DNA of 47,075 bases, from positions 1 through 47,075 of the forward strand of contig JAFRIG010000061.1 of assembly GCA_017432895.1 (NCBI GenBank). The letters are read 5' to 3'. The position numbers and the translations under genes are program-made. Numbering within the stretch: position 1 is the stretch's first letter; every line of letters begins with the position of its first letter. This document shows positions 1,728 through 34,509 of the stretch, piece by piece. The notes under the pieces were generated by a model. The model had not been told where the DNA came from. It did no database searches and worked only from the letters and a program-made list of their open reading frames with translations. The DNA comes from Erysipelotrichaceae bacterium (GTDB taxonomy: Bacteria; Bacillota_I; Bacilli_A; Erysipelotrichales; Erysipelotrichaceae).

Positions 1728-2843
1728 TTATTCTTCGTATAACGGAACAAATTCCTCTAAAAAATCCCGGATCTGAATGTGTTGCGGGCAATTGCCTTCA
1801 CACAGTCCGCAATGCAGACAATCCGAAGCCTTGCCATGATCTAAAGCATAACGCTCATAGTACATCCTGGACTTTTTACCGGTGGAGGCATACAAATTAA
1901 GCAAGCCGAAGTAGCTGGGGATGTTGATGTTCATCGGACAGACTTCCATGCAATAGCGGCAACTCGTACAAGGTACCTTGATCGAACCATTGAGGATATC
2001 GGTGATCTTGGAAACCAGCTTTCTTTCTTTTTCACTCAAAGGTTTAAAATCCATCATATAGGAAGTATTATCATCCATCTGTTCCAAAGCCGACATGCCG
2101 CTTAAGACCACCATGACATTCTCCAGAGAAGCCACATAGCGGATCGCCAGCGAAGCAGGCGAGACCTTTTCATCCTGATAGAAATCATTGAACAGCTTCA
2201 TAGCTTCTTCCGGCAGTCTGGCCAAAGTACCGCCCTTGACCGGTTCCATGACCACTACCTTTTTGCCGTGTCTGACAGCCGTCTCATAACATTTGCCGGA
2301 TTGGGTCACTGCCGAATCCCAGTCGAAGTAGTTGATCTGCAGCTGTACGAAATCAAAAATCGGATGTTCGCTCAGGATCTTATCCAAAGTATCCGCATCA
2401 TCATGGAAAGAGAAACCGATCTTTTTAGCCAGGCCCTTTTCCTTGAGCCCTGCCATGAATTCAAAACCACCGAACTTCTCCGTATTGGGATACTGATCGC
2501 GACCCATGTTATGCAAGAGGTAGTAATCGAAGTATTCCACCCCACACTTTTGTAACTGTTCGTTGAAGATCTTCTCGTAATCCTCCGGGCCCTTCACATG
2601 GTGGACCGGCATCTTATCGGCGATCGTATAGACATCGCGTGGAAATCTTTCGGCTACCGCCGGCTTAAAGAAATTCTCCGATTGTCCTTTGTGATACATA
2701 TAAGCCGTATCGAAATAAGTGAAGCCTCTTTCGATAAACATATCCGCCATCTGCTTGTACTGCTCCAGATCGATGCTGGCGGGATCTTCCGCATTTAACA
2801 AAGGCAGTCTCATTGTCCCGAAACCCAGTTTCTTATTTGTCAT
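1728..2843 (-). CDS. Aldo/keto reductase with C-terminal 4Fe-4S ferredoxin domain
   Basis: 371 residues. The AKR barrel opens with LGFGTMRLP. It shows the catalytic pattern of Asp and Tyr in YFDTAYMYH, Lys in ADKMP and His in LLHNMG. The last third carries two cysteine clusters, CTSCRYCMEVCP and CLHCGLCEGNCP, typical of the Fe-S aldo/keto reductases common in anaerobes. The family is thought to reduce carbonyls with NAD(P)H or to shuttle electrons; the substrate is unknown. No signal peptide. The start at 2843 follows GGAAAGGAG; an upstream ATG at 2885 would add 14 residues but has no ribosome site. Confidence 0.9.
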   Translation of the reverse strand: MTNKKLGFGTMRLPLLNAEDPASIDLEQYKQMADMFIERGFTYFDTAYMYHKGQSENFFKPAVAERFPRDVYTIADKMPVHHVKGPEDYEKIFNEQLQKCGVEYFDYYLLHNMGRDQYPNTEKFGGFEFMAGLKEKGLAKKIGFSFHDDADTLDKILSEHPIFDFVQLQINYFDWDSAVTQSGKCYETAVRHGKKVVVMEPVKGGTLARLPEEAMKLFNDFYQDEKVSPASLAIRYVASLENVMVVLSGMSALEQMDDNTSYMMDFKPLSEKERKLVSKITDILNGSIKVPCTSCRYCMEVCPMNINIPSYFGLLNLYASTGKKSRMYYERYALDHGKASDCLHCGLCEGNCPQHIQIRDFLEEFVPLYEE

Positions 2844-2975
2844 ATCGCTCCTTTCCAAGATGAAATATCTTTTTTGTATTCCCATTATCGCATTTTCTTC
2901 AGCTTAAAATCTAATTCAAAATGAATGTACCGACAGTAAAATCAATAATATAATTAAGTGAAGGAGGCAATAAAC

Positions 2976-3581
2976 ATGGGTGTTTTTTCTAAGATCCATC
3001 GTTACCGGGAAAAAGGCGAATCCGCCAACGTCAACAACGTTGAACTCTTCGGCCAGCCGGTCCGCTCTTTATTTACCAGCACAGCTGTTTTTTCACTTCA
3101 TCATAAGATAGAGATCACTGATGAACATGACAATATCGCCTACTACAGCGAAACGAAGTTCCCTTCGCTGCACGATAAGACCACGGTCACCAATGCCAAC
3201 GGGAATCTGGTCGCCAACATCGAAAGAAAATTCCTTTCCCTGCACCAGAGACACTTCATCTCCATGGCTGACGGGACCGATTTTGAAATGTCCACGGAAC
3301 TGTTTCATCTGATCGACGATATCACCAATATCGAAGGCCTGGGCTGGCAATTGAGAGGCAACATCCTGGCTTTGAACTTCGAACTCTACGATGAAAACGA
3401 CGACATCGTTGCCGTCATTTCACAAAAGATGCTGTCAATACACGACAAGTACTGTATCGACATCTATCAGATCGAAGAAGAACCGATCGTCATCGCCATC
3501 CTGGTCACGCTGCAGCACATCATCAGAGACAGAGAAGCAGCCGCTTCCGCCTCGCATTCAGCTTCATCTTCCTCGAACTGA
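2976..3581 (+). CDS. LURP-one-related / scramblase-like beta-barrel protein
   Basis: 201 residues. A LURP-one-related (tubby/scramblase-fold) pattern: short beta strands with repeated motifs such as FSLHHKIEITDEHDN, FLSLHQRHFI and MLSIHDKYCIDI. The characteristic repeat is a hydrophobic stretch followed by D-x-x-x-x-I/V and then AxIxxK. The tail is Ser/Ala-rich and low complexity. Members (YxjI-like) are cytoplasmic and of unknown biochemical role; lipid or membrane association has been proposed for the fold. ATG at 2976 follows AAGGAGG at 2961-2967. An in-frame GTG at 2958 lies upstream of that site and is unlikely. Monocistronic, with its own terminator. Confidence 0.8.
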   Translation: MGVFSKIHRYREKGESANVNNVELFGQPVRSLFTSTAVFSLHHKIEITDEHDNIAYYSETKFPSLHDKTTVTNANGNLVANIERKFLSLHQRHFISMADGTDFEMSTELFHLIDDITNIEGLGWQLRGNILALNFELYDENDDIVAVISQKMLSIHDKYCIDIYQIEEEPIVIAILVTLQHIIRDREAAASASHSASSSSN

Positions 3582-5390: not shown

Positions 5391-8300
5391 TTATTCAACT
5401 GATTTTAAGGACTCTACCATCGCGATCTCATTGAGATGCCTACGCATGAACAGCGACACCAGCAAAGTGAAACCTAAAGTGATGATAAAGGCGAACATAA
5501 AACTCAGTGGCTTGATATTCATACCGAACATCATCATATCCATATTGATGACATTCATGATGAAGTGGTGTTCCACGACCCCCAAAGGAAAGCCCAGGAT
5601 ACCACCGATGATACTTAACAATACTACTTCCTTGAAGATGTAGCTGTTGACCTCCTGGTCGTGGAAACCTAAGACCTTCAAAGTAGCGATCTCCCTGATC
5701 CTTTCAGCGATATTTACCTGGATCAGGTTGATCAAAACGACTAAAGCCAGTGAGCCTGCCGCCAGGATGATGACCAGGATGATGAAATTCAAAGCCTTGA
5801 TCATCGTCTCGAATTGGGCAATCAGACCGCTGAAATCGATAGTCGAATTGTAGTCCTCCAGTTTAGCCGTATCCTTCTTCAAAGAATCCGGATCGTCACT
5901 GCTGACGGCGATCGAGTTGGCATGGACGTTTTCCGAGAAAGTTCCCTCATAGTAGGCCTGCGATATGAACATGTAGTGCTGGAAATAGAACTCACAGATC
6001 CGGGCGACCTTGACTTCTCTTTTCAAACCGTTTTGCGATTCAACGGTGATGTAGTCGCCTTCCTTGATCTTGTGATTCTTCGCAAACTTCTCGGAAATGA
6101 TGACCCCGCTATTATCCAGTTCGATCGGTGTTTTGCGATCCGTCTTTCTTAAATTCAGAACCTGCTTGGACTCTCTCGCATCGAAGACTTCGACGATCAT
6201 CGTCCCTTCATCGCCCCCATCCAGATAGGCCTTGGTCGTATAGGTCATGAAAGGGACTACCTCACGGTTGTTGAGATCGTCTTTCAATATCTTCACGTTT
6301 TCTTCCAGATGGTGATCATTCTCCAGATCGATCTGATAGTCATAGGCAAAGATCTGCCCGAACTGGATCGAAACGATATCCGAGATCGAATCTTTGATAC
6401 CAAAGCCCACCACCAGTAAAGCCGTACAGCCGGCTACGCCGATGACCGTCATCAGAAAACGCGACTTATAGCGGAAGATGTTGCGGGCTGTGATCTTGGA
6501 CGTAAACGGCAATCTTCGCCAGATGAAATCGATCTTTTCCAGCAACACCCGCTTGGAAGACTTGGGTGCCTTTGGCCTCAGTAACATGGAAGGCATCTCC
6601 TTCAAGGTGGACTTGACTACCCTGTAGGTCACCGCACTCATCAGTAATGAGAAAGCCAATACGCATATCACTACATAAATTAACGGAAAATAGAATTTCA
6701 TCGCCGGCAGATCATACATCAGCCGCCAGGTATTGTAGATGACGGTCGGGAAGATGAGCTGTCCCCCGACGATGCCTAGAGCCGAACCACCAAGTGAAGC
6801 CAGCAAGGCATAAAGGACATACTTGCCGATGATCTGTATCTCCGAAAAACCTAAAGCCAGGAAGATACCGATCTGGGAACGCTGTTCATCCACCAGCCTT
6901 GTCATCGTGGTCATGCAGACTAAAGCCGCCACCAGATAAAACAGGAACGGCATGGCATAGCCGATGGCCGACATCTGAGAGATGGTGTTCTTGTACATAT
7001 AGGAAGAATAATGGGAATCTCTGTCTAAGATCATCCAGGAAGCAGAAGGCAGAGCATCAAGTTCCTCTTGCGCCTTATTCAGATCGTTTTGGGCCTTTTC
7101 GATCTCGTCATTGAAAGTCATCAGACCCTCGTTGTATTCCTTTAAGCCGGCTTCATATTCCCGCTTGCCGGCATCAAGCTGTCTTTGCGCATCGGCCAAA
7201 GCAGCCTGCCCCGCTTCCACCTGCCGGTAGCCCTGTTCCAGTTCGGCCTTGGAAGTCTTGAGCTTGTCTCTTGCTTCATAGAGAGTCCTCAACTGGATAT
7301 AGGTATTTTCCACGGAACCGTTGAACTGGGCATCCAGCGCATCCAGCATCTCCTGTTTGGTATCAGGCTGATCCTCTGTTACATCTTCATAATTCTTTAA
7401 AGTCTCATCGATGACGCTGTTTCTGATCTGCAGACCCTGCTTCTCCACTTCCAGAGCAGCGACGGTTTGTACATAGTCTTCCGCTAAGGGATCCAAGGCA
7501 GCGATCTCTTCATCGATCGCAGCTATCCTTTTAAGGTTTTCTTCCTTTTCTTTTTTGAGCTGCTCGACGATCTGGCCGGTATAGTTGCCGGTGTCGAAGC
7601 TGGCTTCTCTGATCATGATGTAGGAAGTATAGGCAGCCGAGACTTCGGTGTAGAGGGAATCGAAGTCTGTACCTCCCGCTTCTTCCGCCTTTCTGATACC
7701 TTCATTCACCTGGGCTTCCGAGCTCTTCAGGATCTTCTCCGCCGACTCCAGTTCCTGTAAAGACACTTCCAAAGAAGTGCGGTTGGAATCGATGAGACTT
7801 TGGGAAACGATGAGTTCGATGTTGGCATCATCCAGCTTCTGTTTGGCTTCGCTGAGTTCCTGTTCGCCTTTGGCTTTCTCTTCATAGAAAGTCGCCCGGG
7901 CATCATTGAGCTTGGCGAGATTCTCGTCATAGATCTTATCTCTGAGATACGACTCCTGACCATTCCTGGTCGCTTCGATCGAACCGATCTTGGAAGCAAT
8001 GTAGTCATCGTATTCATCCGTAAAAGACATCGTCTCATCGGCACCCTTGAGCGTCAGATAGATGGTCGTGTAGTAATCGAAAATGAAATTGTCGTTGGGT
8101 ATGTAAAGGATCGAATCGAGATCCTGATTCTCGTTGGTCGAAGAGCCCTGGATCTTGGAAGTGTAGGCCGGAGACTTGCAGGTACCAACGATCGTGAAAG
8201 TGTCGTTTTTTAAACGTTCGGAAATATCTTCCTCATTGAGATAGACTCTGACTTTCTGACCGATCAGCCGATCCGAGCTTTCGATGCCTTCACCCAAAAA

Positions 8301-11330: not shown

Positions 11331-12456
11331 GAGAAGACATGCTTCCCTGAGACTCTACGAGGTACTCAATTCCCATCCGGTAGAGATTCATTGCTCCGAT
11401 GCGATCGTCATTGGAAGTATAACCGCAGTTGGTACATACGAAAGTATGTACTTTCTTATGGCGCGATCTCTTGTCAATGTGTCCGCATTTGGGGCAGGTT
11501 TGTGAAGTGTAGGTTGGATCAACTTTTATGACCTTCTGTCCATTCTCAGAGGCTTTATAGCCAAGTTTCTGTTCAAGATCATAAAAGCTCCAGCTCACCG
11601 CTTCATAGCGATCCTTCCTTAATACTCTTTCAGTGGCATGCCGGATCCCCTTGAGATCCTCAAGGACGAAGAGTGTGCCTTTGGGGTTTGATTCAACGAG
11701 TGCCTTTGATACGCAATGATTGACATCACGCATCCAACGGTTTTCTCTTTGACCAATGGCTTTCAATCTTCGTCTTGCCGAAGGGGTCTGCTTTGACTGA
11801 AGTTCGCGTCTTAGTTCCTTGTAGTGAGCTCTTTTATTCTTGATGGCTCTGCCGCTGTAAAATTTGGATCTGCCTTTGCTGTCATAGGTGTTGGCTAGAA
11901 AGTTTATGCCCCTGTCTATGCCGACTACGTTGACGACATCTGTGTCGTTTAAGATGTCCATCTCAGCTGAAACCGATATGTGCAGAAAGAACTTTCCGTG
12001 CTTACATACGACTTTGGCAGTGCCAAAAGAGTAAACGGTCTTGTCAAAATATCTCTCCACGCCTTTAATGTCATAGGTGCACTTAACGCGACCATACAAT
12101 GTTCCAACAGAAAATCTTTCCTTGTTCAGAGAGTAGTCTCTGTTCCATGATAATGTCATTTGCGGGTTTTTGTATTCACACAAGGTCCAAGGATTTCTGT
12201 TCGTCCTGTTTGTTTTGTATGAACCTATCACCGTTCTTACAACATTGCATGCCATCTGTGAGGGAAGACCGTATTCACTTCGCAATGTGGCGTATGTATG
12301 CTTTTGCACAGATACTTGCGACAGGTCTTTTGTCCTGAAGATATACTCAGACACAAAAGCACAGCCTTTTGCATAGACCCTAATGCTTTCAAGCAGAAGT
12401 TGAGCATCTTTTTCTTGTGGATGTATCTGTACTTTGGCAGTCTTAACTGATTCCAT
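11281..12456 (-). CDS. tnpB: TnpB, RNA-guided nuclease of IS200/IS605 elements (OrfB)
   Basis: 391 residues, full length for the family. The RuvC-like catalytic acids are present: Asp in VVGIDRGINFLA, Glu in FVLEDLKG, and Asp in SNDDRIGAMNL. A four-cysteine zinc ribbon (CPKCGHIDKRS ... CTNCGYTS) lies between the last two. The N-terminal helix-turn-helix region (SVKTAKVQIHPQEKD, then SQMACNVVRTVIGSY) is intact, so the protein is probably active. TnpB cleaves DNA next to the element's target motif using an RNA from its own 3' end. ATG at 12456 has only a weak ribosome site; a TATAAT about 18 nt upstream on the minus strand could be its promoter. It stands alone and is flanked by genes of unrelated composition. 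Confidence 0.93.
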   Translation of the reverse strand: MESVKTAKVQIHPQEKDAQLLLESIRVYAKGCAFVSEYIFRTKDLSQVSVQKHTYATLRSEYGLPSQMACNVVRTVIGSYKTNRTNRNPWTLCEYKNPQMTLSWNRDYSLNKERFSVGTLYGRVKCTYDIKGVERYFDKTVYSFGTAKVVCKHGKFFLHISVSAEMDILNDTDVVNVVGIDRGINFLANTYDSKGRSKFYSGRAIKNKRAHYKELRRELQSKQTPSARRRLKAIGQRENRWMRDVNHCVSKALVESNPKGTLFVLEDLKGIRHATERVLRKDRYEAVSWSFYDLEQKLGYKASENGQKVIKVDPTYTSQTCPKCGHIDKRSRHKKVHTFVCTNCGYTSNDDRIGAMNLYRMGIEYLVESQGSMSSLGGAQSIAPDVTSASK

Positions 12457-12593
12457 AATAATTCTCTAAAATTATTATATCACATTATTTAGTGAATAAT
12501 TACATGTATAAACCAATTCCTCTCCCATATGAATAAGGGAGAAACCTTGGTTATTTATTATTGAATTATTTCTAAGAACAGAAGCATCAAGTT

Positions 12594-12680
12594 TATAATA
12601 ATCGACAAAAATGTAGAATTCTACAAGATTTTGGATTAAAGCTGGTATAATAAAATCGACAAAAATGTAGAATTCTACAA
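12594..12680 (+). promoter_or_regulatory. Duplicated promoter plus palindromic repeat upstream of the first DUF4143 ATPase
   Basis: Two identical 27-nt units lie at 12600-12626 and 12654-12680, 54 nt apart. Each begins AATCGACAAAAA and contains the perfect 14-bp palindrome TGTAGAATTCTACA (12612-12625 and 12666-12679). Each is preceded within 0-2 nt by TATAAT (12594-12599 and 12646-12651). The second unit runs straight into the ribosome site AAAAAAGGAG and the ATG at 12694. In RNA each palindrome can fold as a 5-bp hairpin with an AAUU loop. This looks like tandem promoters with operators, or a leader hairpin controlling translation. Confidence 0.7.
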
Positions 12681-12693
12681 AAAAGGAGATCAA

Positions 12694-14004
12694 ATGATAA
12701 AAAGAGACAAGTACCTGAATCTGCTTATCAGCAATAAAGAAAACGGCTTTCCTAAGGTTATTACAGGAGTTAGAAGGTGTGGGAAATCTTATCTTTTAAA
12801 AGAGATCTATAAACAATATCTTTTAGATCAGGGTGTTTCTGAGGATAATATTCTTTTGATCGAATTGGATGATGATAAAAACAGCAAATATCATGATCCT
12901 TTAGAACTGGGAACATATGTAAGGGAACGTTGTAAGGGAAAAACGATGTGTTACGTATTTCTGGATGAAATACAGGAAGTTTACACGATTGTAAATCCCA
13001 ATCTTACTGATGGAAAACATGTATTGGCCAGGAAAAACGATGAACATGTGATAAGTTTTGTAAATGTGGTGCTTGGCTTGTCCAGAGAAAAAAACATCGA
13101 TCTATATGTGACAGGTTCAAATTCAAAAATGCTATCGACGGATATCATTACCGAATTCAGAGACAAAGCAGTTAATATAAATCTGTCTCCATTGTCGTTT
13201 GAAGAATTTTTCAACTTCAAAAGCGGATCTGCTGCTGAAGCTTTCTATGAATATATGCAGTTCGGCGGGATGCCTTTGACTGTTTTGAAAGAAAAAGAAG
13301 ATGATAAAAAAGAGTATCTGACTAACCTGTTTGAAACGACATATTTCAAAGATATTCTTGAACATAATCATTTAAAACGAAGTGAATCATTAGATGAATT
13401 GTGTAACATCATCAGTGAGCAGACAGGCCAATTGTTGAACAGTAAAAGAATAGCTGATACATACCGGAGCGTAAAACACGAATCAATTGATAAAGAAACC
13501 GTTGAGAAATACTTGGGTTTTTATAAGGATGCCTTTTTATTGAGACAAGCCGGAAGGTACGATATAAAAGGCGGATCAGAAATAGGGGCTCTCAGAAAAT
13601 ACTATTTTGTTGATACCGGCTTGAGAAATGCAAGGCTGAATTTTGTTTTTCCTGACGAAGGACAGATGCTGGAAAACATAATATATAACGAGTTGATCTA
13701 TAATGGCTACACCGTAAATATCGGCACATTTGATAATGTTGAAAAAGATGAAAACGGGAAATCAATAAGAAAAACATATGAAGTTGATTTTTATGCAAAA
13801 AAGAACAACAGGTTTTATTACATTCAGGTGGCTGATAATATCAGCGATAGTAAAACCAGACAAAGAGAAATAAAACCATATGTATTATTGAATGATGAAA
13901 TAATAAAAATAATCGTAATTAATAAACCGGTTAATGAATCCAGAGATGAACATGGTTATACTATTATCGGTGTTACAGATTTCCTGCTAAGATATATCAA
14001 ATAA
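12694..14004 (+). CDS. AAA-family ATPase with DUF4143 C-terminal domain (copy 1)
   Basis: 436 residues. The N-terminal AAA domain has Walker A GVRRCGKSYLL and Walker B CYVFLDEIQ, with sensor region YVTGSNSKML. The C-terminal DUF4143 part has the conserved YYFVDTGLRNARL, then EVDFYAKKNNRFYYIQVAD. The last motif recalls the core of PD-(D/E)xK nucleases, but the usual catalytic E-x-K is IQV here, so nuclease activity is doubtful. Members are widespread in gut anaerobes, often in several copies, and their role is unsettled. Codon use is clearly more AT-rich than in neighbours, suggesting transfer. Paralogue of the gene at 30956, sharing the KRDKYL start and RRCGKSYLLK. AAAAGGAG precedes the ATG. 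Confidence 0.88.
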   Translation: MIKRDKYLNLLISNKENGFPKVITGVRRCGKSYLLKEIYKQYLLDQGVSEDNILLIELDDDKNSKYHDPLELGTYVRERCKGKTMCYVFLDEIQEVYTIVNPNLTDGKHVLARKNDEHVISFVNVVLGLSREKNIDLYVTGSNSKMLSTDIITEFRDKAVNINLSPLSFEEFFNFKSGSAAEAFYEYMQFGGMPLTVLKEKEDDKKEYLTNLFETTYFKDILEHNHLKRSESLDELCNIISEQTGQLLNSKRIADTYRSVKHESIDKETVEKYLGFYKDAFLLRQAGRYDIKGGSEIGALRKYYFVDTGLRNARLNFVFPDEGQMLENIIYNELIYNGYTVNIGTFDNVEKDENGKSIRKTYEVDFYAKKNNRFYYIQVADNISDSKTRQREIKPYVLLNDEIIKIIVINKPVNESRDEHGYTIIGVTDFLLRYIK

Positions 14005-18995: not shown

Positions 18996-20084
18996 TCAGA
19001 TCAGCCCGAAATGTTCAAGGGCTTTTTCAATGCCGTCGTCATCGATGTCGGCTGTCACATAATCGGCACTTTCTTTCAGGTGCTCGACGCCATTGCCCAT
19101 GGCCACACCCGTTCCGGCAAATTTCAGCATCGATAAGTCATTCTCACCATCGCCAAAGGCCATGGTCTGTGAACGATAAACACCTTCTCTATCCAGGAAC
19201 TTCTGAATGCCCGCTGCCTTGCCACCGGTCTTGGCGATGATATCTAAACCGGTCTCATTCCAGCTGGTGATCATGCATTCATCCAGCATATTATCCAGTT
19301 TCTGACGGATCCCGTCATCGACGAAAGCCAGACACTGGTAGATCTTTTCGCCCTGATATTCACCGATATCAGGGATGGTACCATGGGTCTGTTCCTGCGT
19401 CCTGATGACCGTGTCATCCACGAAGTTGATATAGCGTTTGTTTTCCCCGATCAAAACAAATGGTATTTTGCCGGCCTGGAAGATGGAGACCAGGATCTCC
19501 ACTTCCCCGGGATCGATCTCGTTGCCATCAAACATCTTTTCATTCTTATCCAGACAGATGTTGCCATTGAGGGTCAGATAGCCATCGAAATTGAGGTCCA
19601 TGATCGGCAGCTTCTTCATTTCGACCAGATCTCTGCCGGTCGCCACGACGATCTTGATGCCGTTTTCCTGCAGCTTCTTTAAAGCCTTTTTGGTACTTTC
19701 CGGGACTTGACCGGTCTTGTGAGAAAGCAAGGTCCCATCGATATCGAAGAAGACGACCTTGATATCTTTTTGGCCGTCAACACTCTGTTTTTCGATATGG
19801 AAAAGATCCGTAAAACCGGTCATTTCAAAGACATCCATGACATCCTCGTTGACGTTGATCAGCGATAAGGCTCTTCTGTTGCCTAATTCCTTTTTGGCCG
19901 CCAGAAAAACTCTTAACCCGGAAGAAGAGATATATTCGATCTCCGAGAGGTCGATGATGATATTCTGACCGCCTTTGAGGTTTTCAAACAGTGTCGCTTT
20001 GAATTCTTCCGCCGTCAGTGTGTCGATACGTCCGTAGGGACGGATGAGACAGATGTCGGCTTCTTTTGTTACATCTATTTTCAT
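18996..20084 (-). CDS. STAS domain fused to a Cof-type HAD phosphatase
   Basis: 362 residues. Residues 1-100 are an anti-sigma-factor-antagonist STAS domain: RIDTLTAEEF, IIDLSEIEYISSSGLRVFLA with the putative phospho-acceptor Ser54, and the ending MTGFTDLFHIEK. From about 108 a HAD domain starts with the nucleophile motif FFDIDGTLL. It continues with VVATGRD (motif II), the Lys in GGKAAGIQKFL (motif III) and FGDGENDLSML (motif IV), all intact, with a C2-type cap. Cof-type HADs dephosphorylate sugar phosphates or flavin-related phosphates. The fusion suggests phosphatase activity or localisation controlled by STAS phosphorylation. It begins 4 nt after the response regulator gene stops, in a LytS-type two-component operon. 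The STAS part closely resembles those at 32399 and 34132. Confidence 0.9.
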   Translation of the reverse strand: MKIDVTKEADICLIRPYGRIDTLTAEEFKATLFENLKGGQNIIIDLSEIEYISSSGLRVFLAAKKELGNRRALSLINVNEDVMDVFEMTGFTDLFHIEKQSVDGQKDIKVVFFDIDGTLLSHKTGQVPESTKKALKKLQENGIKIVVATGRDLVEMKKLPIMDLNFDGYLTLNGNICLDKNEKMFDGNEIDPGEVEILVSIFQAGKIPFVLIGENKRYINFVDDTVIRTQEQTHGTIPDIGEYQGEKIYQCLAFVDDGIRQKLDNMLDECMITSWNETGLDIIAKTGGKAAGIQKFLDREGVYRSQTMAFGDGENDLSMLKFAGTGVAMGNGVEHLKESADYVTADIDDDGIEKALEHFGLI

Positions 20085-20088
20085 AGCG

Positions 20089-20880
20089 TTAATACTCCTT
20101 CAACAGATTGTTTCGCGTTTCATCCGCGAACTCGTACTGGGTCATATACTCGCCCTTGAACTGTCTTTGGGCCTGTTCACCTCCTTCGAGGTAATGATAG
20201 TAGTCGCAATCGATCACCTTCGTATTGACCGAAATGCCGTTCTTGCTTTTGAGGATGATGTCCTTGATCTCTTTAGCTTCAAAGTCCTTGATCATCTCCG
20301 CCGTCACCGTCCTTTGTAAGGACTTTAAGGATTCCGTTAAGGGTTTATCGCCCCAGAGATTGCCGATGATCATATCATTGGTACAGACCGCTCCTTTGCG
20401 GTCGATCAGATAGGCGAAGAGTTCCTTGGACTTGCTGCGATGGAAAAACAGCGGGGTACCGTTGATGAAGACTTCGAAATTGCCGAAGCACTGGACTTTG
20501 ACTTCAGGCTTGGAATTTCCGGCCTTATTGTATCGCAAATGGTCCAAAGCCTTGCGCACCTGTATCTCATCCACCGGCTTAAGCAGATAGCCGCTGGCAT
20601 ATAAGTCGAAAGCTTCACCCATATATTCCTGATAACCCGTGATGAAGACGATGTTGGTCTCGGGGTCGATCTCCTGCAGCTGCCTGGCCAGTTCGATTCC
20701 GTTCATCTTGGGCATTTCCACATCGGAAAAGATCACATCGGGACTCTGTTGTCTCACCGCTTCCAGTACTTCTTCGGGATCAGTCGTACCCAGATGTTCA
20801 CCTTCCGGGTCCAGTTTGTTCAAGATACGCAGAATGATGTTGACGATGGAACGGCGATCGTCGATCGTGATCGTACGCAT
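20089..20880 (-). CDS. Response regulator with REC and C-terminal winged-helix output
   Basis: 263 residues. The REC domain (about 1-118) has the acidic pocket IDDRRS, phospho-acceptor Asp in FSDVEMPKMNG, Thr in FITGYQ and Lys in LLKPVDE. After a linker, residues about 128-220 (VQCFGNFEVFINGTPL, then SKELFAYLIDRKGAV) match the N-terminal winged helix of SARP/BTAD-like regulators rather than the LytTR domain that LytS kinases usually partner. Start at 20880 overlaps the kinase stop by one base (TAATG), so the pair is coupled. Likely DNA targets include its own operon or the uptake genes just upstream. Confidence 0.88.
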   Translation of the reverse strand: MRTITIDDRRSIVNIILRILNKLDPEGEHLGTTDPEEVLEAVRQQSPDVIFSDVEMPKMNGIELARQLQEIDPETNIVFITGYQEYMGEAFDLYASGYLLKPVDEIQVRKALDHLRYNKAGNSKPEVKVQCFGNFEVFINGTPLFFHRSKSKELFAYLIDRKGAVCTNDMIIGNLWGDKPLTESLKSLQRTVTAEMIKDFEAKEIKDIILKSKNGISVNTKVIDCDYYHYLEGGEQAQRQFKGEYMTQYEFADETRNNLLKEY

Positions 20881-22178
20881 TATTCCCGGCCTCCTTCTTC
20901 CAAGGGAATATAAACGGTGACATTGGATTCGTTTTCCCCGATGTCCGTTACTATCCTTCCCTTACAATAATAACTTAAACGGCTCCTGATATTCTCCAAA
21001 GCCACACTGCGGTCCTTCTTCTGACCGCTGGTCTTGGAAGCCATACCTTCGGCATTGTTCCAGACGTTGATGATGATCTCCTTGTCTGTTTTGCGGCTGG
21101 AGATGATGATCTTTCCCTTCTGCTCGACGCAAGTCAAAGCCCCGTAGTTGATCGCATTTTCCACGATCGGCTGCAGAGTCAAAGTCGGTACCATGAAGTC
21201 CATGTATTCCAGCAGATATTCGACTTCAAAATCCCGGTCGGGATCGGTCTTTTCCAGTTTGATATATTCTTTAATGAAATCCAGTTCTCTTTCAAAAGGC
21301 ACCATCTCGTTAGTCGACATATCATCGATATTGTGACGCAGATAACCGGCGAAATAGCCGATACTCTTGACGGCCAGCTGGGGATCGGAATAGCACAGGT
21401 CCTGAATGGACATCAGGGAATTGAAGATGAAATGCGGGGAGATCTGTCCCAGCAGCAGGGTCGATTTGGCCTTGGCGTTTTCCAGTTGCGACTGGAAGTT
21501 TCTTTCGATCTGATCGGTCATGATCAGCACGAACATCGCAAAACCCGCCACGACCGTCGCCATGACGACGAAGTTGAGACCGTAGCTGAACATCTGGACG
21601 ATGATGGCAACCAGAGGCACGACCAGATAGACCCAGAAGGCGACGATCTGCTTATGGGATAATCGATTCCTTTCTTCCAGCAGGATGACGACATCGATCA
21701 TCAGGGTGATGATCGAAGTCAGATACGATAAGGGATACCAGTAGCTACGCACATAGAAGTTGCTTTCATTGATCGTATAATATAAGCCCGTAAACTGCGA
21801 TATCACCAGCATCAGGAAATGGAATAAAGCCAAAGCGTTGATCATCACCTTCAATAGATCTCTTCTTTCCTTATCATAGATGGAGATATCAAAGAGATAT
21901 GTTGAGGTGACATAAGCCAGTAAAGCCGAAAACATGAATTCGCCGAAATTGGCGATATATAAGCCGATCCTGATCTCCGGACCAGGCTTGCCTCTCATCA
22001 GCAGACCCCCGAAATTGGACAGCACAAAAAGCAGATCCATGATGAAGATCGTAATAAAGTATCTTTTCACCAGATTGTTGATCCGCGAAGCGATGATCGC
22101 AGCCGTAATGCCGATGATACTGATAGCGATCGCAAAGATGTCGACCGCAATATTGAACATATAAACCCCGTTTCTCAT
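20880..22178 (-). CDS. LytS/YpdA-type sensor histidine kinase with N-terminal membrane sensor
   Basis: 432 residues. Six or seven membrane segments occupy about 1-220 (for example VDIFAIAISIIGITAAIIA). The His_kinase module follows with LLGQISPHFIFNSLMSIQD carrying the phospho-accepting His, then an HATPase domain with QPIVENAINYGALT (N box) and VALENIRSRLSYY. This layout is typical of the LytS/YehU/YpdA group. The ligand is unknown, and no extracytoplasmic sensor domain is evident, so it may sense within the membrane. Starts at 22178 (AGGAT about 8 nt upstream) and 22160 (GGGG about 5 nt upstream) are both plausible. First gene of the kinase, regulator, STAS-HAD, ruvX run. Confidence 0.9.
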   Translation of the reverse strand: MRNGVYMFNIAVDIFAIAISIIGITAAIIASRINNLVKRYFITIFIMDLLFVLSNFGGLLMRGKPGPEIRIGLYIANFGEFMFSALLAYVTSTYLFDISIYDKERRDLLKVMINALALFHFLMLVISQFTGLYYTINESNFYVRSYWYPLSYLTSIITLMIDVVILLEERNRLSHKQIVAFWVYLVVPLVAIIVQMFSYGLNFVVMATVVAGFAMFVLIMTDQIERNFQSQLENAKAKSTLLLGQISPHFIFNSLMSIQDLCYSDPQLAVKSIGYFAGYLRHNIDDMSTNEMVPFERELDFIKEYIKLEKTDPDRDFEVEYLLEYMDFMVPTLTLQPIVENAINYGALTCVEQKGKIIISSRKTDKEIIINVWNNAEGMASKTSGQKKDRSVALENIRSRLSYYCKGRIVTDIGENESNVTVYIPLEEGGRE

Positions 22179-29916: not shown

Positions 29917-30226
29917 TTTTGACCTCCTTTGCGATGTAATTGAAAACATTCAGCAGTTCTTTAAAATCCAGCAGATATTCATTGATCCGGTCTTTCCCCT
30001 TTTCCGTGATCGAATAGAACTTCCTTAAACGACCGTTATGTTCGACGTTATAGGACTTGAGACAATCGCTGGCCTCCAGCCTTCGCAGGATCGGATACAA
30101 CGTTGACTCCGAGATCTCGATGACATCCTGCAGGGACTGGATGATCTTATAGCCATAGGAGTCTTCCTTTAACAGCGAAGCCAGGACACAGACTTCCAGT
30201 GACCCTCTTTTTAATTGCGCTTCCAT
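29906..30226 (-). CDS. PadR-family transcriptional regulator
   Basis: 106 residues, a minimal PadR protein. The winged helix reads LKRGSLEVCVLASLLKEDSYGYKI, with the wing at LRKFYSITEKGK. A short C-terminal dimerisation helix follows. These repressors sense hydrophobic compounds and usually control an adjacent transporter and themselves. GGGAGGT precedes the ATG at 30226. It is the first large gene of the regulator, HAAS-DUF4097, exporter operon and is likely autoregulated at the dyad-bearing promoter at 30329-30357. Confidence 0.92.
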   Translation of the reverse strand: MEAQLKRGSLEVCVLASLLKEDSYGYKIIQSLQDVIEISESTLYPILRRLEASDCLKSYNVEHNGRLRKFYSITEKGKDRINEYLLDFKELLNVFNYIAKEVKNDA

Positions 30227-30248
30227 AGATACCTCCCTTCAAATGACC

Positions 30249-30305
30249 TCATATTTTGCAATACATGATCACTAAACCATGAAATATCGTTATCCTTTGG
30301 ATCAT
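30249..30305 (-). CDS. 18-codon small ORF leading the PadR operon
   Basis: The ORF reads MIQRITIFHGLVIMYCKI, a short basic and hydrophobic peptide. It is preceded by an almost ideal ribosome site AAGGAGGT, 5 nt from the ATG. It lies between the promoter at 30329-30357 and padR, whose ATG is 22 nt beyond its stop. It could be a leader peptide, a small membrane protein, or a decayed start of an old gene. The ribosome site and frame are seen; translation is inferred. Confidence 0.4.
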   Translation of the reverse strand: MIQRITIFHGLVIMYCKI

Positions 30306-30328
30306 GTTTATACCTCCTTACATATAAT

Positions 30329-30357
30329 ACTATATAACGCATAGTACTATGTGTCAA
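30329..30357 (-). promoter_or_regulatory. PadR operon promoter with a palindromic operator
   Basis: On the minus strand TTGACA (30357-30352), a 17-bp spacer and TATAGT (30334-30329) form a near-consensus promoter. The spacer contains the perfect 12-bp palindrome CATAGTACTATG (30340-30351), and the -10 region repeats its ATAGTAT half. This is the classical position and AT-rich form of PadR operators, so autorepression is predicted. Confidence 0.75.
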
Positions 30358-30398
30358 GTAATAAAAAAGAATTTCGATTTTTGTCAAAAAAATCCTGT

Positions 30399-30427
30399 CT
30401 GACATATACACGTAACAAAGGTATAAT
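30399..30427 (+). promoter_or_regulatory. Promoter within the toxin remnant, driving higA
   Basis: CTGACA (30399-30404), a 17-bp spacer and TATAAT (30422-30427) make a strong vegetative promoter. A small dyad AACAA, N8, TTGTT surrounds the -10 box and could be the HigA operator. The only downstream gene in range is higA, 70 nt away. Confidence 0.6.
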
Positions 30428-30484
30428 TGTTTTGTATTCAGAGACGGCGATTTCTATGATGTGAAGATCACCGATTATAACTAA
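30416..30484 (+). pseudogene. 3' remnant of a HigB/RelE-type toxin gene
   Basis: A short open frame ending in TAA encodes FRDGDFYDVKITDYN at its C-terminus. HigB toxins close with a very similar 'f.w.dGdaydVeivDYH' strand. The frame is closed by a stop at 30413-30415 and everything upstream is unrelated, so about the last 20 codons of a roughly 95-codon toxin remain. It sits 12 nt before higA, in the normal higB-higA order. The match is by eye and short. Confidence 0.6.
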
Positions 30485-30496
30485 GAGGCAATGAAG

Positions 30497-30787
30497 ATGG
30501 CAAAAACGATTGAAACACCGAAGATAAGCGAAATATTAAATGAAGAATTCATGGAGCCTTTTGGTCTGTCTGCCTATAAGCTTGCCAAGCAGATCGATGT
30601 TCCGGTCTCCAGGATCCAGGACATCCTTCATGACAGAAGAAAGATCACCGTTGATACATCAATCAGGTTGGGCAGATTTTTTGGCATATCGGAAAGATAT
30701 TTCATCAATCTTCAAAATGATATCGATTTCAGAAACGCCATGATCGAAATGACGGAATCTTATGCCAAGATCAATCCGTTTGTTTAA
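30497..30787 (+). CDS. higA: HigA-family antitoxin (VapI-type helix-turn-helix), toxin-less
   Basis: 96 residues. The order matches HigA: KISEILNEEFMEPFGLSAYKLA, the helix-turn-helix DVPVSRIQDILHDRRKITVDTSIRL, then FFGISERYFINLQNDID. HigA binds its own operator and neutralises HigB. The start at 30497 has GAGG 7 nt upstream; the ATG at 30491 is too close to it. The full antitoxin is intact while only the end of the toxin remains, so it may now act as a free regulator or as an anti-addiction gene against a related toxin elsewhere. AT-rich like the adjacent ATPase gene. Confidence 0.85.
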   Translation: MAKTIETPKISEILNEEFMEPFGLSAYKLAKQIDVPVSRIQDILHDRRKITVDTSIRLGRFFGISERYFINLQNDIDFRNAMIEMTESYAKINPFV

Positions 30788-30841
30788 AAAAGTCGAAAAC
30801 ATTTTTGATTGTTTTTATGAACGGAAGCAACAAACGATAGA

Positions 30842-30950
30842 TATAAAACATCTATTCGAAAATTATTTAACATGTTACGTTTTTTTCGAATATATCATAT
30901 AATATTCTTGTAATCGAAAACTACTGCACTTGTTACGTTTTTTTCGGAGG
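30842..30950 (+). promoter_or_regulatory. Duplicated promoter plus hairpin repeat before the second DUF4143 ATPase
   Basis: Two 33-nt units (30856-30888 and 30914-30946), 58 nt apart, share TCGAAAA at the left and TGTTACGTTTTTTTCG at the right. The ends of each are complementary (CGAAAA with TTTTCG), so each can fold into a hairpin. TATAAA (30842-30847) precedes the first and TATAAT (30898-30903) the second by about 10 nt. The second unit abuts the ribosome site GGAGG at 30946-30950. The layout copies that before the ATPase at 12694 although the sequence is different. Confidence 0.65.
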
Positions 30951-30955
30951 AAATA

Positions 30956-32212
30956 ATGAAAATTAAGAGAGACCGTTATCTACAAAAACTGATTGATCGA
31001 AGGCACAGCTCTTATATAAAGATAATTACAGGAATTCGCCGCTGTGGCAAAAGTTATCTGCTGAAGACGCTGTATTACGATTATCTGCTTTCACAAGGCG
31101 TTAATAATGATCAGATAATCATCGTCGAACTCGATGATGACCGTTTTGAAAATCTAAGAGAAAAGAAGCGACTTAGAGAATATATAGAAACAAAAGCTTC
31201 TGACAATAATATTCAATATTATGTTTTTGTTGATGAGGTTCAGATGGTCAAAGATTTTGAAGGAACCATAATTTCACTGAACAATCACGATAACTATGAT
31301 GTGTATATTACCGGAAGCAACTCTGAGTTCTTGTCAAAGGATATTTCCACGAGATTTAAGGACAGGGGAAGTGAAATAAGAATCCACCCACTATCTTATG
31401 AAGAATACTATTATGCATATCAGGGCGATAAGCGATTTGCCTTAAGGGACTATCTGACTTATGGCGGAATGCCGCGCCTGTTTGATGAGAAAACGGAAGC
31501 GGATAAAATATCTTACCTGAATAATCTTATTAACAGAACGTATTTAAGTGATGTTGTAGAAAGGAACGATCTCAAACTTCCTGAAGAGATGAGCTCTTTA
31601 TTTGACTTGCTTTGTTCAACAACCGGTTCCTTAATTTCTCCCAGCAGTATTGCAGGAACACTTCAGGCTGATAAGCATGTAAAGATAGATGACGAAACCG
31701 TTTTTTCCTATGTTCAATACCTGGAAGATGCTTTCATTTTTGAAAAAGCCAGAAGATATAACATAAAAGGCAAAGAATATCTAAAAACACCATTCAAGTT
31801 ATATCCTGAAGATGTCGGGTTAAGAAATGCCAGAATCAATTTCCGTCAGCAGGACAGAGGATTTGGCATTAAAAATGTTGTTTACAACGAGTTAAGAAAC
31901 AGAGGTTATGCAGTAGATATCGGTCTTTTGGAAACCAGAGAGAGAAATTCAGAAGGTAAGCAGGTATATAAGCAGAACGAAGTTGATTTCATAGCCCGTT
32001 TTGCCAGCAAAGAATATTACATTCAAGTAATGGACGAAGTACCTGAAGGGCAGCATGCGAAAAATGAATATTCAAATTTAATAAAGGTACCTGGATCATT
32101 TAAAAAGATTGCCGTCATCAACAAGCCTTTCAAATCCTACACTGACGAGAAGGGGATACTGATAATATCGCTGGAAGAGTTTTTGATTGACCGGGATTCT
32201 TTAAATCTGTAG
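30956..32212 (+). CDS. AAA-family ATPase with DUF4143 C-terminal domain (copy 2)
   Basis: 418 residues. Walker A GIRRCGKSYLL and Walker B YYVFVDEVQM lie in the N-terminal AAA domain, with YITGSNSEFL as sensor region. DUF4143 motifs are DVGLRNARINF and EVDFIARFASKEYYIQV; as in the copy at 12694, the E-x-K of a PD-(D/E)xK nuclease is replaced by IQV. The two copies are clearly paralogous but far from identical, so they are not a recent duplication. AT-rich codon use marks it as imported with higA. Cytoplasmic; proposed roles for the family are unproven. GGAGG lies 5 nt before the ATG at 30956. Confidence 0.88.
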   Translation: MKIKRDRYLQKLIDRRHSSYIKIITGIRRCGKSYLLKTLYYDYLLSQGVNNDQIIIVELDDDRFENLREKKRLREYIETKASDNNIQYYVFVDEVQMVKDFEGTIISLNNHDNYDVYITGSNSEFLSKDISTRFKDRGSEIRIHPLSYEEYYYAYQGDKRFALRDYLTYGGMPRLFDEKTEADKISYLNNLINRTYLSDVVERNDLKLPEEMSSLFDLLCSTTGSLISPSSIAGTLQADKHVKIDDETVFSYVQYLEDAFIFEKARRYNIKGKEYLKTPFKLYPEDVGLRNARINFRQQDRGFGIKNVVYNELRNRGYAVDIGLLETRERNSEGKQVYKQNEVDFIARFASKEYYIQVMDEVPEGQHAKNEYSNLIKVPGSFKKIAVINKPFKSYTDEKGILIISLEEFLIDRDSLNL

Positions 32213-32398: not shown

Positions 32399-33559
32399 CT
32401 AGTAAAGCAGAGTATCCGTTTTTGCGACGTAATCGATCAGCTGCTTTCTGTAGTAATCGATATATTCCTTGTTGTCCGGATCTCTCTTTATAGTCCTTCT
32501 TAAGACTCGGGCATAGCCCAAGACCTTGGCCTTTTCCAGAACGGAAGCTTTAAAGTCTTCGTCCTTTCCTTCGAAATAGAAATCGAACAGCTTGGCCATG
32601 ATCTGCTGAGCCAGATCCCAGTCGATCTTTAAGAAGTTGGTGATGTTGTCGTGATTTAATTCACCGAAACCGCAGTAAGCCAGATAGATGGATGCGAATT
32701 CCAAGATCGGATGACCCCAGGAGAGAGTATCCATATCCAGAAGTATCGCTTCGCCATTACCATAGTGGACGTTGCTGCAATGATAGTCGCCATGGATCAT
32801 GTAGTGATGTTCCGGGATTTCATCGATCAGCTTCAGCAGCTTGTCGCAGGTCTCATCGGGAATATGGCCCTTTAACCACTCCGCCCTGTCTCTGGCTGCC
32901 TTCTTGGCATCGGGCAAGGCATCGGAACTGACCTCAGTTCCATGGATCTCCTTAAGCATATCCGCATAGATCTTCACATAGTGATCGATATTATCCGGAT
33001 CCTGCAGGATCAGTTTGGTGATGGACTTGGAATTGAGCAGTTCAAAGACCGAACCGAATTTATCGCCGACCTTTACCACATCAAACGGGATCGCCGTATT
33101 GACACCCATGACTAAAGCTCTCTTGGCCAGTTCTCTTTCTCTTTTGATATCCTCTAAAGCATCCGGATTTTTGTAGACCTTTAAGATCGTATCCGGATTG
33201 ATCCGATAGACGATACCGTTGGAACCTTCACCGATCACTTCACAGCCTTCCACCGACAGATGACGGTAACCCTTTTCGATATCCATCATCTCCGTGAAAC
33301 CCGTCATCGAGAAGATCTCGTAGATCTCGGAGTTGCAGTTGACGATCTTCAGATCGGCTTCCTTTTTCTTTAAACGCAGGATCTGCCTGAGACCGGCGGA
33401 TGATATATAGTTGAGCTCATCGGCATCGATGACTACTTTCCCTTCCGGATATTCACTTCTGGCAGCGGCGATCTCTGCACCGACCTGTTCGGCATTGTTG
33501 GTATCGACACTTCCTTCCAGATGAAGTGTCAGGACACCGTTTTCATATTCATATCTCAT
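32399..33559 (-). CDS. STAS domain fused to an APH/choline-kinase-fold phosphotransferase
   Basis: 386 residues. Residues 1-100 are a STAS domain: SVDTNNAEQV, VIDADELNYISSAGLRQIL with Ser54 as the phospho-acceptor, and MTGFTEMMDIEKG. From about 108 a protein-kinase-like fold begins: glycine loop GEGSNGIVYRI, ATP-binding Lys in ILKVYK, Glu in IKRERELAKRA. The catalytic loop HGDYHCSN and the metal-binding LDMDTLSWG follow, as in aminoglycoside, choline and fructosamine kinases. The kinase part looks active; the substrate is unknown and resistance is only one possibility. It is the last gene of a STAS, RsbW-like kinase, STAS-phosphotransferase operon, 12 nt after the kinase gene. Its activity is probably switched by STAS phosphorylation. 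Confidence 0.9.
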   Translation of the reverse strand: MRYEYENGVLTLHLEGSVDTNNAEQVGAEIAAARSEYPEGKVVIDADELNYISSAGLRQILRLKKKEADLKIVNCNSEIYEIFSMTGFTEMMDIEKGYRHLSVEGCEVIGEGSNGIVYRINPDTILKVYKNPDALEDIKRERELAKRALVMGVNTAIPFDVVKVGDKFGSVFELLNSKSITKLILQDPDNIDHYVKIYADMLKEIHGTEVSSDALPDAKKAARDRAEWLKGHIPDETCDKLLKLIDEIPEHHYMIHGDYHCSNVHYGNGEAILLDMDTLSWGHPILEFASIYLAYCGFGELNHDNITNFLKIDWDLAQQIMAKLFDFYFEGKDEDFKASVLEKAKVLGYARVLRRTIKRDPDNKEYIDYYRKQLIDYVAKTDTLLY

Positions 33560-33571
33560 ATCACAAACCTC

Positions 33572-34105
33572 TCATCTGAATTTCTTGCCCATCGTCAGGA
33601 TGTTCCAGCGTCCGTTTCGCTTGTATCTGACACTATCCATCGATTTCTTGATCATATAGATACCTAAGCCGCCGATCTTGCGATGATGGACTTCGCTCTT
33701 GATATCGGGATCTTCTTTCGCCAATGGATCAAACGCCATACCGTCATCCAAAAGCGTGATATCGACATTGTCACCATCAAAAGCCAGTCGGATCCACACC
33801 TTGCCGGTACCCTCTTCCTGACCCTCATAGGCGTAATGGGCGACATTGACGAAAGCCTCTTCCAAAGACAGCGTCATCGCCATCGTCTGTTTCAATCCGG
33901 CTTCGTGTTTCTCCAGCTCTTCTTCCAGGAAAGCCAGGACATCGTGCAGATGTTTATCATCGGCCTCGAATTCCCTGATGATCTCCTCTTCGCATTCCGG
34001 CATCTCATTTCCTTCATATTCAAAAGGAGAGGTCGTCACGATCTCTTCGTTCATAGCCTCATTCTCCTCTTGTTTTAAGGATTCGTTTTCCAAATCAAAC
34101 AGCAT
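33572..34105 (-). CDS. RsbW/SpoIIAB-like serine kinase (anti-sigma-factor type HATPase)
   Basis: 177 residues. After an acidic 35-residue extension, an HATPase_c_2 domain shows the N box LSLEEAFVNVAHYAY, the G1 box LLDDGMAFDP and the G2 box GGLGIYMIKKSMD. These are the landmarks of RsbW, SpoIIAB and BtrW kinases that phosphorylate STAS partners on serine. No sigma factor gene is adjacent; its neighbours are a free STAS protein and a STAS-phosphotransferase, its likely substrates. Start at 34105 is uncertain: no ribosome site is well placed. Met18 (34054) is an alternative and would trim the acidic extension. Confidence 0.88.
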   Translation of the reverse strand: MLFDLENESLKQEENEAMNEEIVTTSPFEYEGNEMPECEEEIIREFEADDKHLHDVLAFLEEELEKHEAGLKQTMAMTLSLEEAFVNVAHYAYEGQEEGTGKVWIRLAFDGDNVDITLLDDGMAFDPLAKEDPDIKSEVHHRKIGGLGIYMIKKSMDSVRYKRNGRWNILTMGKKFR

Positions 34106-34131
34106 TTTGATAAGAATGCCTCTCTTTCAGA

Positions 34132-34428
34132 CTATTCGATGGTCAGTATCTCCGTGAAGCCGGTCATCTCCAGGACTTCCATGATCTCTTCATTGACGTT
34201 GCAAAGAGCCATCTGACCCTTGGCAGACATCGTCTTCTGGGCATTGAGGAAGACTCTTAAACCCGCCGAAGAAACGTACTCCAGATCCTTGAGATCCAGC
34301 GTCAGTTCGCTGATGTTTTCAGGAAGCTCTTTGAGTTCTTCCTCCAGCTGCGGTGAAGTAATGGTATCGAGCCTGCCTGATAATTCCAGTCTGCAGGAAT
34401 CGTCTTTGATCACTTTATTTATTTCCAT
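34132..34428 (-). CDS. STAS domain protein (anti-anti-sigma factor type)
   Basis: 98 residues, a single STAS domain. LSGRLDTITSPQLEEEL is the first strand-helix unit, LDLKDLEYVSSAGLRVFLNA carries the phospho-acceptor Ser54, and it ends MTGFTEILTIE. These three segments match those of the STAS-HAD and STAS-phosphotransferase fusions almost position by position. The ATG at 34428 follows AGGAGG; an upstream GTG at 34434 lies inside that site. It heads the three-gene operon and should be the substrate of the RsbW-like kinase next to it. Confidence 0.92.
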   Translation of the reverse strand: MEINKVIKDDSCRLELSGRLDTITSPQLEEELKELPENISELTLDLKDLEYVSSAGLRVFLNAQKTMSAKGQMALCNVNEEIMEVLEMTGFTEILTIE

Positions 34429-34480
34429 AAGCACCTCCTATATTGAATTAATGTTAATGATTTAGATCCAGTTTTATTAT

Positions 34481-34509
34481 ATTATACCTTCTATCTTTCC
34501 TGTCGGAAA
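34481..34509 (-). promoter_or_regulatory. Probable promoter of the STAS operon
   Basis: On the minus strand TATAAT (34486-34481) is preceded at 17 bp by TTTCCG, a weak -35 box. The resulting leader to the ATG at 34428 is about 45 nt. Confidence 0.4.

Follow-up and report, generated by a model that had tools for sequence, protein, structure and literature searches.

A conserved fusion of a STAS domain to an APH-fold kinase suggests a partner-switching operon with a small-molecule kinase as its output

A three-gene operon on the minus strand of a 47,075-nucleotide stretch of DNA from an Erysipelotrichaceae bacterium (the whole stretch is referred to here as the window) probably encodes a partner-switching module that carries a small-molecule kinase as its covalently attached output. 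In the textbook case, a partner switch regulates a sigma factor. A switch fused to an enzyme points to a widespread, apparently undescribed on/off control of an enzyme in gut bacteria. The window belongs to a fragmented assembly that is 93.5% complete with 5.5% contamination.

The operon begins with a free STAS protein of the RsbV/SpoIIAA type (34132..34434, minus strand; Pfam STAS, 7e-17; TIGR00377, 77 bits, over the cut-off), whose true start is probably the ATG at 34428, 5 nt behind an AGGAGG ribosome-binding site. Its predicted phosphosite, S54 when numbered from MEINK, is encoded at 34267-34269 on the minus strand. Next comes a 177 aa serine kinase of the RsbW/SpoIIAB type (33572..34105, minus strand; Pfam HATPase_c_2, 2.1e-24) with intact ATP-binding boxes: the N box EEAFVNVAHYAY, the G1 box DDGMAFDP and the G2 box GGLGIYMIKK. 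The last gene encodes a 386 aa STAS-APH fusion (32399..33559, minus strand), which Pfam, TIGR02172, AlphaFold and PDB matches connect to aminoglycoside phosphotransferases (APHs) and choline kinases. Pfam places a STAS domain at residues 6-95 (4.9e-12; 33275-33544, minus strand) and an APH domain at residues 109-296 (1.1e-14). The minus-strand codon of the predicted phosphorylation site S54 lies at 33398..33400, the APH catalytic loop HGDYHCSN (H256-N263) at 32771..32794 and the metal-binding D275 of the DMD motif at 32735..32737. All three minus-strand ORFs are thus backed by Pfam, each domain scoring well above its cut-off, with both APH motifs intact, as the preliminary description had proposed.

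That description had also remarked on the absence of an adjacent sigma factor or PP2C phosphatase gene, and for the window operon this holds: neither was found next to it among the ORFs and Pfam domains. The intergenic gaps, 26 nt between the free STAS and HATPase genes and 12 nt between those for HATPase and STAS-APH, leave no space for a PP2C gene within the operon. The genes upstream encode HypA, a large oxidoreductase and HypB. Consensus scanning of the operon region found no promoter or terminator on the minus strand. Two stretches of the window have low GC content, 30001-32000 (0.37) and 12001-14000 (0.34) against about 0.47, and carry genes on the plus strand, among them the gene at 30956-32212, whose 418 aa product is ATPase-like; both stretches were possibly acquired.

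When the fusion is compared by eye with SpoIIAA (YISSAGLR against FMDSSGLG), S54 aligns with SpoIIAA S58, which agrees with the phosphosite position originally suggested. This residue is serine in all 111 STAS-APH fusions in which the position is filled, an invariance that is partly biased, as one of the two search patterns for the wider set contained the serine. A genus set free of this bias, collected with whole proteins as queries, conserves S54 and the APH residues likewise, even in a relative 25% identical to the window protein. The serine of the YxSSAGLR motif is also found in 67 of 67 aligned free STAS proteins. In the APH domain H256, G257, D258, N263 and D275 are invariant (111/111), as are K127 and E141 (112/112), and the N-box Glu and Asn of the HATPase are kept across all three homologue architectures, with the G1 and G2 boxes conserved too. 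By sequence, then, the operon holds both a STAS antagonist with a phosphorylatable serine at the SpoIIAA S58 position and a HATPase_c_2 serine kinase with intact ATP-binding boxes, as expected of a partner switch.

The AlphaFold model of the window fusion (pLDDT 94.3, pTM 0.79) places S54 at the start of the helix formed by residues 54-66, where it caps helix 2. In SpoIIAA-type antagonists the phosphosite S58 sits at the N-terminus of helix 2 in the structure 4QTP (PMC7647112, excerpted text). Profile searches show that the STAS part resembles SpoIIAA-type antagonists and the APH part, weakly, APH(4) and APH(2''). Fold comparison of the APH part retrieved choline and ethanolamine kinases together with APHs (Z up to 17.3, 10-18% identity); its family score, fold, HxDxxxxN loop and metal-binding Asp assign it to PF01636. 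The fold shows no substrate preference, since choline kinase, APH(4), APH(2''), aminopropanol kinase, FN3K and others score alike. The best NCBIfam model for the APH part is TIGR02172, which describes paralogous APH-like proteins of Fibrobacter succinogenes, but membership was rejected at 112 bits against a cut-off of 228.2, and other relatives reach 94-102 bits.

A scan of genome contigs confirmed at least 559 STAS-APH relatives, so the fusion extends far beyond the window, and the architectures reported here were counted in the 80 nearest of these. Genes in the 80 loci were picked with their domains in view, as longer antisense ORFs overlie the STAS and HATPase genes in GC-rich loci. These best 80 of at least 559 belong largely to Clostridia and Erysipelotrichia of gut and rumen, with Treponema in addition. 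In 28 loci STAS, APH and HATPase form a single polypeptide of 500-585 aa, in 34 the HATPase is encoded in the same operon but separately from the fusion, and in the remaining 18 it is absent from the operon; eight of these 18 reach a contig edge, and several do not. The tripartite architecture was confirmed with Pfam in two loci (L136, at 6314-7906, and L102), and an AlphaFold model of a tripartite protein has a pLDDT of 86.8 and a pTM of 0.68. For comparison, five HATPase_c_2 matches in a genome of 2.29 Mb would place one within 5 kb of a given gene in about 2% of cases, against 63 of 80 observed. The tripartite proteins cluster on the tree, with 5 label changes against 25 in shuffles. Among other components of the nearest 80 operons, PP2C occurs in 37, a free STAS in 33 and an HD protein in 24. 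STAS-APH is patchily distributed: sampling located it in 12 of 392 genomes from the phylum, in 24 of 391 from the class to which locus L136 belongs and in 11 of 297 from that of L155. Some loci carry paired STAS-APH paralogues close by, as at L218:4066-5265 and 6240-7415, with a 312 aa protein between them, and at L120:816-2018 and 2063-3253.

Within the genus of the window organism we sampled 36 genomes (family f1). Here the usual gene order is MscS channel, free STAS, PP2C-HATPase, HD_4 protein and STAS-APH, where the PP2C-HATPase is a membrane protein of 630-700 aa with SpoIIE/PP2C and HATPase_c_2 domains. Most relatives have SpoIIE/PP2C fused to the HATPase and an alarmone-hydrolase-like HD protein in the operon. 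The window and its sister on the tree, L038, have the HATPase alone in place of the PP2C-HATPase usual in the genus, which suggests that the missing PP2C is most likely a derived, reduced form of the operon. Linkage of PP2C to a partner-switch module is common, not required. The window genome does encode four PP2C sensors, all unlinked and none with a neighbouring STAS or HATPase gene; a SpoIIE/RsbU-type PP2C is therefore present in the genome, and its action on these STAS proteins is putative. The point made earlier about a missing phosphatase accordingly stands for the neighborhood of the window operon, but not for the system, to which PP2C belongs in relatives.

Presence and absence of the two main components match across the genus, in line with the expectation that the fusion and the RsbW-like gene would co-occur. 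The 29 genomes with a full-length STAS-APH are the same 29 that have a strong HATPase_c_2 match (at least 68 bits), although these genomes are related and do not count as independent events. Three genomes without any STAS (G008, G017 and G026) also have no HATPase over the cut-off, and G025, which is 72% complete, contains a STAS-APH fragment only.

The central proposal of the preliminary description, that the switch acts on a phosphotransferase in place of a sigma factor, has strong genomic support: a HATPase fused or in the operon at 28 and 34 of the 80 loci, the co-occurrence in the genus and the lack of a SigB/F/G homolog. None of the 36 genus genomes has a SigB/F/G protein over the TIGR02980 cut-off, the top matches (about 130 bits) being RpoD-like, and a cognate sigma factor of the B/F/G group is likewise missing from the window operon. 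The sigma factors of the window genome are RpoD and four ECF/SigH-like proteins only.

What the genomes show, from the genes present and their order to the conserved motifs, the fusions and the co-occurrence, leads us to infer that the switch gates the APH kinase. The HATPase would bind unphosphorylated STAS domains and phosphorylate the serine of YxSSAGLR, which is S54 of the free STAS and of STAS-APH alike. Membrane-sensor PP2C phosphatases would reverse this; most relatives have them joined to the HATPase, whereas those of the window organism would act in trans. Docking of the HATPase on the STAS domain, or phosphorylation of that domain, would alter the activity of the attached APH kinase, and the free STAS would compete for the HATPase and so set the share of it that engages STAS-APH. 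Phosphorylation of S54, the resulting change in APH activity and its direction, and competition by the free STAS are all predictions drawn from sequence comparison. The tripartite proteins favor an enzyme that is gated where it sits, with which the free STAS would compete for the HATPase, over one that is released from the kinase; in those 28 loci release by simple dissociation would be impossible, because the HATPase is covalently attached.

The same covalent joining weighs on the idea that STAS and HATPase sequester or localize STAS-APH, on a stressosome-like scaffold or at the membrane, so that location and not rate is controlled. STAS domains often serve as docking or scaffold modules, and this general role, together with the MscS and membrane PP2C genes adjacent in the genus, lends the idea some appeal; with the HATPase part of the STAS-APH chain in 28 loci, we judge it unlikely. 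Less probable still is a classical partner switch in which the HATPase has an unlinked target that acts on transcription, whether RpoD, one of the ECF/SigH-like sigma factors or some other regulator; STAS-APH would then be an additional anti-anti-sigma input and would modify its own signalling through its APH activity. Sigma factors are the classical binding partners of RsbW-like proteins, which speaks for this reading, as does the presence of RpoD and the four ECF/SigH-like factors in the window genome. Yet no sigma gene was noticed when the gene maps of the examined relative loci were inspected, the HATPase is fused to APH and not to a sigma factor, and the genus-wide lack of SigB/F/G over the cut-off also argues against it.

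We consider it extremely improbable that the fusion is an aminoglycoside resistance gene that happens to bear a STAS domain. The fold matches to APH(2'') and APH(4) would fit such a gene, but identity to resistance enzymes is about 11-18%, the resistance model APH_2pp_Ie_IVa of NCBIfam scores 16 bits against a cut-off of 600, and about 30 genomes of a single genus keep the gene linked to a signalling operon.

If the output is a small-molecule kinase, as we favor, the recurrent neighbors give a weak hint at its substrate. Profile comparison puts the HD protein nearest to Lmo0812, small alarmone hydrolases, SpoT/RelA and MESH1, and it keeps the HD and downstream Asp/Asn residues. A PHP-domain protein is encoded one or two genes downstream of STAS-APH in 18 of the 80 loci, mostly tripartite ones (for example L109:7589-8485); its best NCBIfam model is 3',5'-nucleoside bisphosphate phosphatase, with a score below the cut-off. 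Known members of both neighbor families act on 3'-phosphorylated nucleotides, and on this ground we guess that the APH substrate may be a nucleotide or nucleoside. One special case of the favored reading would then be that APH makes or removes a nucleotide-type messenger, which the HD and PHP proteins and a STAS-HAD phosphatase (described below) turn over, so that the operon is a second-messenger switch. Such a circuit would have its parallel in the partner switches that control diguanylate cyclases, and the presence of the alarmone-hydrolase-like HD protein in 24 of 80 operons is in keeping with it, as is the PHP protein at its 18 loci. However, the APH fold fits choline, aminoglycosides and fructosamine about equally, the window operon is without HD and PHP genes, and the neighbors may serve unrelated roles; we hold this special case to be fairly unlikely. 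A SpoIIE-type PP2C fused to the alarmone-hydrolase-like HD_4 domain is encoded directly upstream of STAS-APH in Treponema and related bacteria (L153:4605-5963, where Pfam confirmed the fusion in Treponema, and L160:3260-5971).

The window contains a second STAS-enzyme fusion, a STAS-HAD phosphatase (18996..20084, minus strand; Pfam Hydrolase_3, 2.5e-54, and STAS, 8.7e-20) whose S54 codon lies at 19923-19925. It scores 182 bits against the cut-off of 137 of the Cof subfamily model TIGR00099, which makes it a Cof-type phosphatase, and S54 and every HAD motif are kept in 12 of 12 homologs. Adjoining it on the minus strand (20089..22178) are genes that Pfam identifies as a response regulator (20089-20880) and a sensor histidine kinase (20880-22178). 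STAS-HAD and STAS-APH are 12 kb apart in the window, with about 10 kb of other genes splitting the two halves, and in several relatives they share an operon: STAS-HAD directly follows STAS-APH in L039 and lies between the free STAS and PP2C-HATPase genes in L058 and L059. The order in L038 and L050 is free STAS, HATPase (in L050 PP2C-HATPase), STAS-APH, histidine kinase, response regulator, STAS-HAD and RuvX, where the histidine kinase/response regulator pair corresponds to clusters c13 and c16. The window retains the same genes in two separated halves. The STAS proteins of the window genome number just three, against its four PP2C sensors, and each of them (the free STAS, STAS-APH and STAS-HAD) is encoded within the window; STAS-HAD would supply a phosphatase output in the same circuit.

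The module resembles the SpoIIAA/SpoIIAB/sigma-F and RsbV/RsbW/sigma-B switches of Bacillus in its free STAS with a phosphosite, its HATPase_c_2 kinase and, in relatives, its SpoIIE/RsbU-type PP2C. It differs from them in that the genus has no sigma-B/F/G, a small-molecule kinase is attached to the other STAS domain and the HATPase often shares a chain with PP2C or with STAS-APH. Enzymes have already been described as outputs of partner switches: HsbA-HsbD, BgrV-BgrR, SiaC-SiaD and MtT-MtG of Moorella all control diguanylate cyclases (PMC7647112, excerpted text). In SiaABCD, HsbRA-HsbD and BgrUVW-BgrR, too, a switch kinase and phosphatase and a phosphorylatable antagonist control an enzyme and not a sigma factor; according to the same excerpts, the antagonist is there a separate protein acting on the diguanylate cyclase, whereas here STAS forms one chain with the enzyme, be it an APH-fold kinase, a HAD phosphatase or an adenylating ligase. 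Because of these precedents the general design, which had been put forward as not familiar from any described pathway, is not new; a small-molecule kinase as the covalently fused output of a partner switch does appear to be.

Two further systems offer partial parallels. MlaB regulates the Mla ABC transporter, and the MlaB-MlaF pair is similar in that a STAS protein acts directly on an ATP-driven machine (PMC7367683, excerpted text). It is dissimilar in that this STAS is a separate protein and is part of a lipid transporter, not of a PP2C/HATPase module. Anabaena all4160 joins an N-terminal STAS domain to a glycosyltransferase and so is also a STAS-enzyme fusion, but with another enzyme, and the excerpted text of PMC8256260 describes no HATPase/PP2C operon for it. 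A literature search for STAS-APH, STAS phosphotransferase, TIGR02172 and STAS-enzyme-HATPase found no description, which is weak evidence, as subscription journals are poorly covered.

We tentatively raise a broader scheme, which we hold to be possible though short of an even chance, in which gut and rumen Firmicutes and some spirochaetes use the STAS/HATPase/PP2C set as a general post-translational metabolic bus. STAS would be the address tag on enzymes (APH kinase, HAD phosphatase, acyl-adenylating and GH3 ligases), HATPases would be fused to transporters (MatE) or enzymes, and many outputs would be set, without a sigma factor, by a single free STAS together with several sensor phosphatases, the product of STAS-APH being maybe a nucleotide messenger. 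Hundreds of genomes with the switch fused to a small-molecule kinase, plus STAS-phosphatases and STAS-ligases, would mean that metabolism in the animal gut and rumen is under a further, widespread kind of control that has gone unstudied. The single-chain STAS-APH-HATPase proteins offer a compact test object, with switch kinase, phosphosite and regulated enzyme together in one chain of 520-550 aa.

Several other fusions of STAS or HATPase domains were seen in these genomes. Some MatE-type transporters, about 580-600 aa long, carry a C-terminal HATPase_c_2 domain (L083:601-2346 and L128:8488-10260, both confirmed with Pfam), which by its predicted domains is a switch kinase fused to a transporter. 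The window genome has two candidates, judged from length and sequence, in G000:C46 (L178:2172-3923) and G000:C73 (L179:2664-4451). A GH3-family ligase with a C-terminal STAS is encoded at L131:9472-11514 and L213:773-2788, and STAS is joined to an AMP-binding, acyl-adenylating ligase at L075:4390-6276 and in L076 and L077, with a YITSxGLR phosphosite and an intact TSGxTGxPKG motif. Finally, a sodium:dicarboxylate symporter (L107:2900-4507; PF00375 from residue 135) has an N-terminal extension that by eye resembles a diverged HATPase, and similar proteins are encoded near 4 of the 80 loci.
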